From positions 1,178,001 through 1,242,000 of the forward strand of contig NZ_BMXT01000001.1 of NCBI RefSeq assembly GCF_014651895.1: a stretch of 64,000 nucleotides of DNA, in the 5' to 3' direction. Below the pieces are notes generated by a model. It had not been told where the DNA came from and did not search any database. It saw only the letters and a list, made by a program, of their open reading frames with translations. The stretch comes from Rhodanobacter panaciterrae. GTDB taxonomy: Bacteria > Pseudomonadota > Gammaproteobacteria > Xanthomonadales > Rhodanobacteraceae. The first letter of the stretch is position 1; each line of letters starts with the position of its first letter. Both the position numbers and the translations under genes were made by a program. Below are positions 16,397 through 37,304 of this stretch, piece after piece.

Positions 16397-16557
16397 GTCT
16401 GCTGACTGCGCCGCAGCAAGATGCGTATACGGTCGGTAGCTGTGGACGATGTTGCGCGATAACTAACCGTGTCGTGTTGCACATGTGGGCTGCGAGTTGC
16501 TTGCAATAGGGTGCTATGCAGCCTAATTTCAGGAAGCCCAACCAAGGAGGGCGTCAA

Positions 16558-17211
16558 GTGATCAATGTTGTCCTGGTGGACGATCACGAGCTGGTTCGCA
16601 CCGGCTTTCGGATGATTCTGCAGCAGCAGTCGGATATCAATATCAGTGGTGAGGCGGGCACGGCGGAGGAAGGCCTGCGCTTGATCCGCACGCTGACACC
16701 GGACATTGCGCTGGTCGATGTGCACATGCCTGGCATGAGTGGCATCGAACTCACCGAGCGTGTGTCCCGCTCGAAACTATCCACGCATATCGTCATCGTG
16801 ACGGTGGTCGACGATGCGCGCTTTCCCAAGCGGCTGCTTGATGCCGGTGCGCTGGGCTACCTGACCAAGGGCTGCAGTGCCGATGAACTGGTGTCTGCCG
16901 TGCGGCAAGTGGCCGGCGGCCGGCGTTACCTTGCTCCGGCAGTTGCGCAGCAACTTGCATTGGCCACCCTCGACGGGAGCACTTCGCCGTTCGACGTGCT
17001 ATCCAGCCGCGAGCTGGAGGTGGCGATGATGCTGGTACGCGGCAAGCCGTTGACGATCATCGGCGAACAACTCAACCTGAGCCCGAAAACCGTATCCACC
17101 TACAAGCAACGTCTGATGGAAAAGCTGCATGTGGATCATGTGCTCAGCCTGGCGCATCTGATGACGGTGCATGGGCTGATCGATACGCCGAACCATCACG
17201 TGGGTAACTGA
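16558..17211 (+). CDS. UvrY/GacA-like response regulator
   Basis: A two-component regulator of 217 residues: a receiver domain (acidic pocket VDDHE, phospho-acceptor Asp54 in ALVDVHMPG, Lys in YLTKG) and a C-terminal LuxR-type helix-turn-helix (LSSRELEVAMMLVRG to NLSPKTVSTYKQRLMEKL). It resembles E. coli UvrY and Pseudomonas GacA along its length, including the shared start MINVVLVDDHELVR. The start is GTG 16558 because AAGGAGG lies 7 bp upstream (16544-16550); an ATG further up at 16516 lacks this. No uvrC or pgsA follows, unlike the usual uvrY-uvrC order, and its sensor kinase is not adjacent. Confidence 0.85.
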   Translation: MINVVLVDDHELVRTGFRMILQQQSDINISGEAGTAEEGLRLIRTLTPDIALVDVHMPGMSGIELTERVSRSKLSTHIVIVTVVDDARFPKRLLDAGALGYLTKGCSADELVSAVRQVAGGRRYLAPAVAQQLALATLDGSTSPFDVLSSRELEVAMMLVRGKPLTIIGEQLNLSPKTVSTYKQRLMEKLHVDHVLSLAHLMTVHGLIDTPNHHVGN

Positions 17212-24006: not shown

Positions 24007-24361
<355 letters not shown>

Positions 24362-26781: not shown

Positions 26782-26820
26782 TAAAAAAGCCGCGAGGAGG
26801 ACTCCTGTCCGCCCGCGGCT
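26782..26820 (-). terminator. Intrinsic terminator, minus strand
   Basis: A 7-bp outer stem AGCCGCG/CGCGGCT with an inner GGAC/GTCC stem is followed by six T on the minus strand. It ends transcription coming from the sensor-kinase side, either of that mRNA or of the candidate sRNA. Confidence 0.85.
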
Positions 26821-27010
26821 GCTCCCCTACCTGTCCCAGTCGGCGTGCGCGATAGACTCGCGATAGCCTGCACTTGTCGCCAGGTAGCGGCGAAACGGCA
26901 TCCTGCCGTTGTTTCAGAGCCCCCGTCCCCACGGTGACTCTGATCCGCCATCTTGCGATGGCGGCTCCCCCACATCGATGGATTGATCGTAACGAGCCCT
27001 TCACGTTTCC
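26783..27010 (-). ncRNA. Candidate CsrA/RsmA-binding sRNA (RsmZ/CsrB-like)
   Basis: No protein gene fits this segment. On the minus strand it folds into serial hairpins: CCGCCATC/GATGGCGG with a GCAA loop (26945-26964); CAGAG/CTCTG enclosing CCGT-GGGG-ACGG (26915-26942); AACGGCA-GGA-TGCCGTT (26894-26910); a long composite arm closed by CTACCTG/CAGGTAG (26827-26887); and a terminator AGCCGCG/CGCGGCT with inner GGAC-AGGA-GTCC and a T-run (26783-26820). About nine GGA motifs occur, at least two in textbook apical loops. That is the pattern of CsrA/RsmA-titrating RNAs. It could instead be a structured 3' region of the kinase mRNA. The 5' end is not defined. Confidence 0.45.
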
Positions 27011-27026
27011 GGTATCGGAAAAATTC

Positions 27027-28640
27027 CTAGGTCTGCCGGCGGTTGTCTGCGGGTGTGTTGTTGCTCCGCAGCAAAATCCGCAGATGTACGCCGGCATGTT
27101 CGGGGCGCAGGCGGAACTGACCGCCAAGCGAGGTCACCCGGTCGCGCATGCCTTGCAGGCCGCGGCCACCACGGGGCAGTCGGCTGGGCAGGCCGGCCCC
27201 GTCATCGCGCAGGTCGAGTACCGCCAGCGCGATACCCTGACGCTCGCCGATACGCAGGCGCAGTCTGAATTCGCTGGCCTGCGCATGCTTGACGGCGTTG
27301 GTCGCACTTTCCTGTACCAGTCGATAAATCGCGGTGCGCGTGTCGTCGTCGAGCAGGCGCGGGTCACCGTGCAGTTCGGTGTGGTACGTCATGCCGGCGG
27401 TGTTCAACAGGTCACGGATCGGGCCTTCGTCGAGCGCGCGCAGCAGGCCGAACTCGTCGAGCACAGCCGGACGCAGGTCATCCAGCAGGCGGTGCAGGGC
27501 GCGTCGCATGTGCGCCAGGATGGTATTGATCGAGGTGCTGATGTCCTCCATGCCGGCCTGGTGCAAGCGCGCCTGGGCCAGCTTCACGTGGGTCTGGATT
27601 GCGGTGATGTTCTGACCCAGTTCGTCGTGCAGTTCGGCAGCCAGGTGCCGGCGCTGGTTTTCGTCCGCTTGCAGATTGCCGCGGGCGGCATCGCGCAATT
27701 GATGGGCAAGCTGGTCGAGTCGACGATTGACTGCACCCAGATAGACGTTCTGTTCGGCGACCCGCTCGCTGCTTCGGCGCAAGGCATCGGTAGCCGAACC
27801 CAGCATCAAGGCACCGGTGCCGGCGACAGCCAGAAACAGATACGCCGCCGCGGTCGACGGGGCGTGGCCAAGATGTTGATCGACCAGGGTCATGCCGAGA
27901 CTGGTGATGAGCATCGCCAGGCTGGCGCCGCGCCAGCCGTGGCGAAACGCAAAGAAGAGTACCGGTGCCAGTGATAGCACACGGGCAAACTGCGGTTGCG
28001 GCGCAGCGTGTTCGGACAACACCAGCAGAATCGTCATCGAGGGCAACATCACCAGCAGACCATCCATGACCAGGCTGACCAAGGCGCGCTGGTCGAGTCC
28101 GTTGCGCAGCAGCATGATCATCAATGGCACGATCAGCAGGATGCCTAGGTAGTGGCTGAGCAATTCCTCGCCGAGTACGCGCAGCATCAGTTCCGGTGAA
28201 TTGGGTGAATGGATAATGGCCAGCAGGGCAGCGTCCACCGCCGTAGTGGCCGTGACTACCAGCACCACGGAAAGCAGTAATCGGGTCACTTCCTGCGGAC
28301 TGTGAAGGCTGGCGTGCAAGTTGAACTGCCGCAGCAGCCATAGGCTGGCTGCCATCACCAACGGCTCGGGCAATTCACCGATGACGAAACCGGTCCAACC
28401 CAGTGGCAGGCCATGGGCCATGCTGATGCTGGCGGTAGCAGCCAGTTCCGCGCCGAGCAGCCAGCCCCAGTGGCGCATTGGCGTGAGCAGCAAGGCGCCG
28501 AAGCGCAAGCCATACGGCAACATCCAGAACGGTTGCACGGTCGGCCACAGCAGCAGCCATAGCAACAGGTAGCCGGCGCCCAGCAATGGGCCGGAGTTGG
28601 GCAGATGAAATGATTTCAGGCGCATGTATGGATGGTACAT
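27027..28640 (-). CDS. MASE1-type sensor histidine kinase, UhpB-like
   Basis: A membrane sensor kinase of about 537 residues. The N-terminal 300 residues hold eight or so hydrophobic segments resembling the MASE1 sensory domain. A short coiled linker leads to the HisKA_3 domain with the phospho-acceptor His in LAAELHDELGQNITAI, then the HATPase domain: N-box ESATNAVKHAQAS, DDGAGLP and GGRGLQGMRDRV. It is divergent from a UhpA-like regulator, its probable partner. ATG 28640 has GGAT 5 bp upstream; ATG 28625 is an alternative. The signal is unknown. Confidence 0.87.
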   Translation of the reverse strand: MYHPYMRLKSFHLPNSGPLLGAGYLLLWLLLWPTVQPFWMLPYGLRFGALLLTPMRHWGWLLGAELAATASISMAHGLPLGWTGFVIGELPEPLVMAASLWLLRQFNLHASLHSPQEVTRLLLSVVLVVTATTAVDAALLAIIHSPNSPELMLRVLGEELLSHYLGILLIVPLMIMLLRNGLDQRALVSLVMDGLLVMLPSMTILLVLSEHAAPQPQFARVLSLAPVLFFAFRHGWRGASLAMLITSLGMTLVDQHLGHAPSTAAAYLFLAVAGTGALMLGSATDALRRSSERVAEQNVYLGAVNRRLDQLAHQLRDAARGNLQADENQRRHLAAELHDELGQNITAIQTHVKLAQARLHQAGMEDISTSINTILAHMRRALHRLLDDLRPAVLDEFGLLRALDEGPIRDLLNTAGMTYHTELHGDPRLLDDDTRTAIYRLVQESATNAVKHAQASEFRLRLRIGERQGIALAVLDLRDDGAGLPSRLPRGGRGLQGMRDRVTSLGGQFRLRPEHAGVHLRILLRSNNTPADNRRQT

Positions 28641-28720
28641 GTGCGATCCGCATCGATGCGCCAGCACGATTGTTGACGACGGACGCGCATAAGGTCTGGA
28701 TCCATGTGTAAAGTAGCGGG

Positions 28721-29356
28721 ATGTACAGCATTGTTCTGGTCGATGACCACGCCATCGTTCGTGAGGGCTTCAAGCGGCTGATCGAGATGGAGCCGGATCT
28801 TGACGTCGTGGCCGAATGCCGCAGTGCGGATGATGCGGTGGAGGCGGTGGGTCACTGGCGTCCCGATCTGGTGGCGCTGGATTTGTCCCTGCCTGACGGC
28901 AGTGGTCTGCCGTTGATCGAGCACCTGCTCAGCGTGGCCGCCGAGACACGTATCGTGGTGCTGAGCATGCATGACGGCGAGCCGTATGTGTCCGAGGCTC
29001 TGCGTCGTGGCGCCAGCGGCTATGTCACCAAGGGCGTGGCACCGGAAGAGCTGGTGGCTGGCCTGCGCGCGGTGATGCAGGGCGAATGCTTCCTGAGTTC
29101 GGATCTGCGTCAGCGCCGTGCCGACCGGCCGAACGCGGCGCTTGACCCGATCAACCGTCTTACCGCGCGCGAGCGTGAGGTATTCCTGCTGCTGGCGGGC
29201 GGACGTGCACCCAAGCAGGTGGCAGGGGAATTGGGGATTGGTCAGAAAACCGTCTACATCCATCGCGCCAGCCTGATGGGCAAACTGGGCGCGGGTTCGG
29301 AACTGGATCTGTATCGGATGGCGACCGAACGCGGGCTGTTGCCACCGAACAGTTGA
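28721..29356 (+). CDS. UhpA/NarL-type response regulator
   Basis: A 211-residue transcription regulator with receiver domain (VDDHAIVREGF, phospho-acceptor Asp54 in VALDLSLPDG, Lys in GYVTKG) and LuxR-type DNA-binding domain (LTAREREVFLLLAGG to GIGQKTVYIHRASLMGKLG). It is closest in remembered sequence to E. coli UhpA. The partner is the divergent MASE1 kinase 80 bp away. No uhpC or uhpT transporter lies nearby, so a hexose-phosphate role is not supported; the target genes are unknown. It is convergent with recN, 9 bp apart. Confidence 0.88.
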   Translation: MYSIVLVDDHAIVREGFKRLIEMEPDLDVVAECRSADDAVEAVGHWRPDLVALDLSLPDGSGLPLIEHLLSVAAETRIVVLSMHDGEPYVSEALRRGASGYVTKGVAPEELVAGLRAVMQGECFLSSDLRQRRADRPNAALDPINRLTAREREVFLLLAGGRAPKQVAGELGIGQKTVYIHRASLMGKLGAGSELDLYRMATERGLLPPNS

Positions 29357-37041: not shown

Positions 37042-37104
37042 GTCGCTTCCCACCGGGGTCTCGGCTTGTAACGCATCGCTGCGGCCGTTAGCATCCGCAC
37101 GTTG

Positions 37105-37304
37105 TCATTGGGGAGTAGCCAGCCTCGTCCCCAGAGGCGTTCGCATCAACACACTTGGTCGCGGTTGTTTCCGGCGCCATGGTGCGAACAGCAGCCGTCG
37201 CCGTCAGGTGGCGATCCTGCCCGGCGAGACCTTTGGCCATCGACATGCTTACCCGACCGGGCGAGCGGTGTCGTTGAGCCATCGGTTATTCCGCCCGCCC
37301 GGTC
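37105..37304 (+). promoter_or_regulatory. yybP-ykoY (manganese) riboswitch
   Basis: The leader carries the two conserved strands of this class: TTGGGGAGTAGCC (from 37108) and CGAGACCTTTGGCC (37225-37238). A strong expression-platform hairpin follows: GACCGGGCG (37255-37263) pairs with CGCCCGGTC (37296-37304), whose 3' arm abuts the AGG ribosome-binding site of the downstream gene (start 37316). Mn2+ binding by this family is established; translational control of the CaCA exchanger by masking its start region is inferred. Confidence 0.88.

Follow-up and report, generated by a model that had tools for sequence, protein, structure and literature searches.

A conserved small RNA gene beside a sensor histidine kinase in Rhodanobacter panaciterrae and its relatives, a candidate CsrA/RsmA sponge

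Between a sensor histidine kinase gene (stop codon 27029-27027) and the convergent fur gene, the 64,000-nucleotide stretch of DNA analysed here (the window), from the soil bacterium Rhodanobacter panaciterrae, almost certainly contains a small RNA gene. The predicted non-coding transcript of about 197 nt, read from the minus strand, folds into five hairpins including an intrinsic terminator and carries eight GGA motifs (Table 1). Across 17 aligned genera GGA is held while the stems drift with compensation. These features make it very probable that the RNA represents a new sequence family of CsrA/RsmA-titrating sRNAs working like RsmY, RsmZ and CsrB. The genome contains one CsrA gene (90.8 bits compared with a cut-off of 27), the product of which we take to be canonical for the family.

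Table 1. Features of the sRNA locus and of a distant GacA-like gene (window positions).
Feature	Position	Strand	Remarks
sRNA gene	26783..26979	-	fold, conservation, covariance
5' single-stranded GGGGGA	26966..26971	-	GGA in register in 34/34 aligned sequences
Hairpin 1	26945..26964	-	GCAA loop without GGA, covarying stem
Hairpin 2	26914..26943	-	apex CGTGGGGACG (26933-26924) invariant in 34/34; strong covariation in lower stem
Hairpin 3	26894..26910	-	loop AGGAT, putative CsrA site
Variable arm	26828..26886	-	closed by TACCTG/CAGGTA, then GGGGAGC at 26827-26821
Intrinsic terminator	26783..26820	-	hairpin 26819-26789, loop GGAC-AGGA-GTCC, putative CsrA site
-10 box TACGAT	26986..26991	-	TANN(A/C)T hexamer conserved
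Palindrome TAGGAATTTTTCC	27017..27029	-	presumed response-regulator site, overlaps kinase stop codon here
Sensor histidine kinase MASE1-HisKA_3-HATPase_c	27027..28667	-	UhpB-like, under UhpB cut-off
NarL/UhpA-type response regulator (receiver and LuxR HTH)	28721..29356	+	divergent from kinase
GacA/UvrY-like response regulator	16516..17211	+	217.6 bits, under 280-bit cut-off; 10 kb from sRNA

A preliminary description of the region had proposed a non-coding segment of successive hairpins ending in a clean intrinsic terminator, and this is borne out by the fold. The minimum free energy of the 228-base stretch considered there is -105.5 kcal/mol, compared with -87.0 +/- 4.4 kcal/mol for dinucleotide shuffles (z -4.2; none of 200 as low), and that of the 197-nt RNA is -96.7 kcal/mol, a value reached by none of 1000 shuffles. 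Six T (26788-26783) directly follow the terminator hairpin. The extent given earlier, 26783 to 27010, is probably too wide. When the -10 box and the conserved ATCGATGTGGGGG at the start are used to place the 5' end, and the T run the 3' end, the RNA would occupy 26783-26979, and 26980-27010 outside it would be the promoter. The count of about nine GGA motifs likewise applies to the 228-base stretch; eight lie in the RNA and the ninth in the promoter. A conserved reading frame is absent. Frames opening at a conserved 5' ATG, present in 30 of 34 sequences, stop at 18-50 codons or leave the RNA, and a coding gene was rejected because their fate differs between sequences.

The abundance of GGA is in itself ambiguous. 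At least eight occur in only 6 of 1316 tiled 197-nt segments of both strands (mean 2.46; segments on the locus counted in). Measured against its own dinucleotide content, the RNA shows no excess, as 159 of 1000 shuffles, which average 5.8 GGAs, have at least eight, nor is there an excess of GGAs in its hairpin loops, since at least two occur in the minimum free energy structures of 85 of 1000 shuffles of the 197-nt RNA. Because shuffled sequences match these counts, the single sequence is no proof of CsrA sites, and conservation decides. Of the two loops singled out beforehand, AGGA on a GGAC/GTCC stem in the terminator lies at 26810-26799 as described, and GGC-AGGAT-GCC is present at 26907-26897, one base away from its earlier numbering.

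Conservation was assessed by aligning 34 sequences, drawn from 17 genera, with MAFFT. Three sites, namely the 5' tail, the apex of hairpin 2 and the loop of the terminator, have GGA in register in all 34. At hairpin 3 GGA is in register in 28 sequences and missing from this position in six, and 32 of 34 have a GGA anywhere in the loop stretch. The GGGGAGC segment before the terminator is more variable, with GGA in register in 22/34 and in 24/34 when register is not required. The 12 GGA columns at the first four sites have a mean identity of 0.98, and inclusion of the fifth site (15 columns) gives 0.953; for comparison, the mean is 0.789 in the 83 stem columns and 0.674 in the 96 remaining unpaired columns. 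The GGA sites had been picked after inspection of the alignment. For the 42 named base pairs, pairing is intact in 91.1% of cells. Double changes affect 25 of these pairs in 183 cells, compared with 56.7 in shuffles (none of 500 reaching 183) and 21-48 with slid partners, a control in which the tested structure is favoured, as it was drawn by RNAalifold from the same alignment. The GGA loops are thus kept while the stems drift, which is the pattern named beforehand as favouring the proposal. The unpaired sites, namely the 5' GGGGGA, the hairpin-2 apex GUGGGGAC, the terminator loop AGGA and, in most sequences, the hairpin-3 loop AGGA, stay fixed while the stems keep pairing by compensation, and we therefore regard them as putative CsrA sites.

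The RNA is widespread in the family. BLAST detected it in 33 of 60 relatives, comprising 33 of 36 genomes of the same genus; the 24 relatives from other families of the order gave no match. Training on 30 sequences from the genus yielded a covariance model (R1) that matched 144 of 233 family genomes in 17 of 26 genera, with a single copy in 143 of the 144. By hand count, 42 matches belong to the genus itself and 102 to 16 other genera; the latter are the independent part, because the model was trained on the former. The exception to the single copy (G034) has a second match of 25.1 bits, which is a repeat of hairpins with AGG(A) loops at the end of a contig and was not counted. Here, at about 2221-2386 of locus L252, AGGA-type-loop hairpins are repeated, possibly as a repeat element. 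A second model, R2, matched 99 of 398 genomes of the order and added one further genus of the family (genome G065), in which the RNA lies at the expected place; nothing convincing was found outside the family among these 398 genomes. Four matches were not counted, two from genomes outside the family (27.0 and 23.4 bits) and two that are second matches in genomes of the family (32.1 and 24.3 bits); they show a terminator-like end without the GTGGGGAC or 5' GGGGGAG blocks. A search of plasmids for the RNA gave no match.

Among named genomes, a DNA pattern built from the invariant blocks retrieved 106 stretches, of which R2, whose training set includes part of them, confirmed 100 (74/80 and 26/26). 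Besides metagenome-assembled genomes (MAGs), the confirmed names are mostly Rhodanobacter, Dyella, Luteibacter, Frateuria, Fulvimonas, Oleiagrimonas and Pinirhizobacter, in keeping with the Rhodanobacter/Dyella lineage envisaged at the outset. The six unconfirmed stretches are labelled Streptomyces (three), Chloroflexi, Alphaproteobacteria and Dermatophilaceae. Full-length copies of the sRNA also occur on contigs labelled as a Thiobacillaceae MAG (L145, 162.9 bits) and an Eremiobacteraeota MAG (L186, 159.5 bits), which are perhaps mis-binned. In one genus of the family set (g43), a divergent RNA occupies the same place (L220, 5641-5844, 41.8 bits; L224, 4071-4276, 38.1 bits; L254, 1501-1705, 44.2 bits). 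Two genomes of another (g20) have a GGA-rich stretch at the sRNA position (L221, about 5128; L222, about 4980) that the model does not recognise and that is perhaps a strongly diverged homologue.

Known RNA families do not account for the locus. Rfam models of RsmY, RsmZ, CsrB and CsrC gave no match at gathering level, nor any up to E 10 at the locus, which agrees with the earlier suggestion of a possible new member. Another RNA family was rejected, as the locus has only two weak Rfam matches (E 5.2 and 8.1), far under gathering scores. At 11 loci of relatives Rfam reported tmRNA only. In the window itself, a tmRNA with the tag ANDDNYALAA lies at 24007-24361 (+), and a yybP-ykoY manganese riboswitch at 37098-37222 (+; RF00080, 56.4 bits). 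Among the matches listed in a search of the open-access literature, none describes an RNA antagonising CsrA in Rhodanobacter, Dyella or Luteibacter, and the main text of a machine-learning survey (PMC5568370) names neither Xanthomonas, Rhodanobacter, Stenotrophomonas nor Dyella.

The region upstream of the RNA is conserved as well. It was compared at 53 loci, 30 from the genus, 20 from other genera and three more (L223, L225 and L226). The motif GGAAWWWTT precedes the RNA at all 53, and a TANN(A/C)T hexamer lies at a fixed distance from the palindrome at 51 and one base further at two. In R. panaciterrae, TAGGAAWWWTTCC is centred at about -43 relative to the deduced start near 26980. This promoter copy is unique, with no other exact occurrence in the 64-kb window. 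The form TAGGAATTTTTC occurs exactly once in the genome, and three places with one mismatch look, by eye, unlike RNA promoters. The palindrome TAGGAATTTTTCC presumably resembles sites bound by BvgA, LetA and other regulators of the NarL family. Its outer TA is present at 51 of 53 loci and missing solely in two congeneric genomes, G010 and G254, which have apparently lost the kinase-regulator pair and retain the core GGAATTTTTCC and the -10 box. The position of the kinase stop codon was compared with that of the motif in 56 loci. Stop and motif coincide in 28, and in 23 others the stop is found 6 to 182 bases upstream of the motif; three of the remaining five have an artefactual stop (L089, L096, L100) and two no motif by regular expression (L220, L224). 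As the stop codon lies elsewhere in 23 of the 56, it does not by itself explain the conservation of the outer TA. The three g43 loci with a diverged RNA, which are outside the 53, have TAGGAATCTTTC upstream, the site reading TAGGAATCTTTCC at two and TAGGAATCTTTCT at the third, and both g20 genomes have a full palindrome, TAGGAAAAATTCCTA, with the GGA-rich stretch behind it.

The sensor kinase next to the RNA, pointed out in the preliminary description, adjoins it in other genera too: at 20 of 20 such loci, kinase, regulator and fur flank the RNA, and recN was seen at 18. The kinase is most similar to UhpB (184 bits compared with a cut-off of 408), and the divergent regulator reaches the cut-off of none of the 25 NCBIfam models listed. 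A GacA orthologue was rejected for this regulator, which scores 127 bits with the UvrY/SirA/GacA model (cut-off 280) and higher with MctR, UhpA, NarL and MadR.

By hand count, the regulator (E <= 1e-60) occurs in 141 of the 144 RNA-positive genomes; neither RNA nor regulator was found in 71 of 233, and one genome of the genus itself (G022) is without both. Three genomes have the RNA and no regulator. In G014 the contig ends just past the kinase start; G010 and G254 are apparent losses, judged by a search of the whole genome for the regulator (E 1e-60) and of an 8-kb stretch for the kinase. Inspection by eye revealed a kinase-like remnant beside recN in one of these two and a MerR-like frame there in the other. 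Conversely, 18 genomes have the regulator and no R1 match. Contigs end within the kinase in two (G016 and G029), and in G065 the RNA was found by R2. Eleven belong to g43, where R2 found the RNA genome-wide in G200 and G163, only by local search in G153, and not convincingly in the other eight. G060 and G085 have no convincing R2 match at the locus, yet a palindrome and GGA-rich sequence are present there; weak R2 matches of up to 26.4 bits lie elsewhere in these genomes. In G095 and G132 the regulator matches are near the threshold, and an R2 match in G095 (25.3 bits) was rejected as the RNA on inspection of its sequence.

The sequence data suggest, with some preference, that the RNA is activated by the neighbouring regulator and not by GacA. 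That this regulator reads the site receives modest support from the loss of the outer TA in the two genomes without the pair, which represents two events. The same CsrA-titrating RNA might instead be switched by a GacS/GacA-type system, with the adjacent pair as a stable neighbour or modulator, an arrangement we consider possible and the less probable of the two. A GacA-like regulator is encoded in 25 of 26 genomes tested, including G254 and G010 (in the latter with a match to residues 63-217 only), and these two genomes, which have no adjacent pair, still keep the RNA together with the GGAATTTTTCC core and the -10 box, which makes control by GacA conceivable. In R. panaciterrae, this gene adjoins a convergent frame that resembles RNase E by eye. 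Against such control, no canonical GacA box, described in PMC4950607 as the TGTAAG-N6-CTTACA element used by rsmY and rsmZ, lies near the RNA when up to three mismatches are allowed; the window has five such matches, compared with a chance mean of 6.6, and none is near the gene. Moreover, the GacA-like gene occurs also in genera without the RNA, whereas the adjacent regulator tracks the RNA, and the two genomes without the pair are precisely those in which the outer TA was lost, again only two events.

Two further explanations concern the RNA itself. It could be a structured sRNA that pairs its G-rich loops with C-rich mRNA stretches and titrates no CsrA. The invariant or near-invariant blocks ATGTGGGGGAG and CGTGGGGACG exceed the length of a GGA core, as would be expected of pairing seeds. 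We consider this unlikely, since the element common to hairpins 2 and 3, the terminator loop and the 5' tail is GGA, set in contexts that otherwise differ, which is the pattern of CsrA sites; the terminator loop itself is GGACAGGAGTCC. Even less probable, to the point of being barely tenable, is an origin from the 3' end of the kinase mRNA by processing, analogous to the release of RsmU from the comEA mRNA in Xanthomonas, as described in PMC7694677. The RNA does lie directly downstream of the kinase and collinear with it. However, a -10 box and a palindrome at fixed spacing are conserved ahead of it, and RNA and promoter survive in two genomes whose locus is without the kinase.

A CsrA-titrating RNA with its own promoter, the explanation we prefer, can be set beside known systems. 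CsrB and CsrC of enterobacteria are multi-GGA CsrA sponges that are longer and have more sites; their design is shared by the present RNA, which has no match to them in Rfam. Xanthomonas belongs to the same order of bacteria as Rhodanobacter. The RsmY, RsmZ, RsmX and RsmW RNAs of Pseudomonas are, like the RNA presented here, short molecules in which several hairpins are formed and GGA occupies loops and linkers. Of the seven GGAs in RsmW, three are in outer loops, according to PMC4950607. A difference is that rsmY and rsmZ use a GacA box, whereas here TAGGAAWWWTTCC precedes the RNA, a MASE1 kinase adjoins it and Rfam gives no match. The nearest RsmA-binding RNA that we found described, RsmU of Xanthomonas campestris, is of different origin. 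According to PMC7694677, it is a GGA-bearing RNA that binds RsmA and is processed from the comEA 3'-UTR, and both RsmA binding and the overexpression phenotype persisted when all four GGAs were changed. By that description the present RNA stands apart from RsmU, as it has its own promoter, lies between kinase and fur, and has a MASE1 histidine kinase gene rather than comEA upstream. Control of CsrA-relieving RNAs by a two-component system, as proposed here, has a parallel in Legionella, where LetA/LetS acts through RsmY/Z to relieve CsrA (PMC5928044). The present promoter has its own palindrome, TAGGAAWWWTTCC. The LetA box also has a GAA/TTC palindrome.

In the mechanism that we propose, CsrA dimers would bind the GGA sites of the RNA and be withheld from mRNAs, and induction of the RNA would relieve CsrA control. 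With less certainty, the MASE1 kinase may signal to the divergent NarL-type regulator, which would act at TAGGAAWWWTTCC, approximately 43 bases upstream of the start, and turn transcription on. Kinase, regulator and sponge might then form a self-contained module, in which the pair switches the RNA directly through this site, independently of GacS/GacA, and which was inherited with the CsrA sponge as one block between recN and fur across the family. We give this joint reading even chances of being right or wrong.

Through the global regulator CsrA, a sponge encoded next to its own sensor genes probably couples a sensed signal to the control of lifestyle in these bacteria. If this is true, the RNA would represent the CsrA switch of the group, with a covariance model at hand for its annotation, and would provide a simple system to ask which signal reaches CsrA through a non-GacS kinase. 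Because the kinase-regulator pair has been lost naturally in two genomes, this wiring is open to direct testing.
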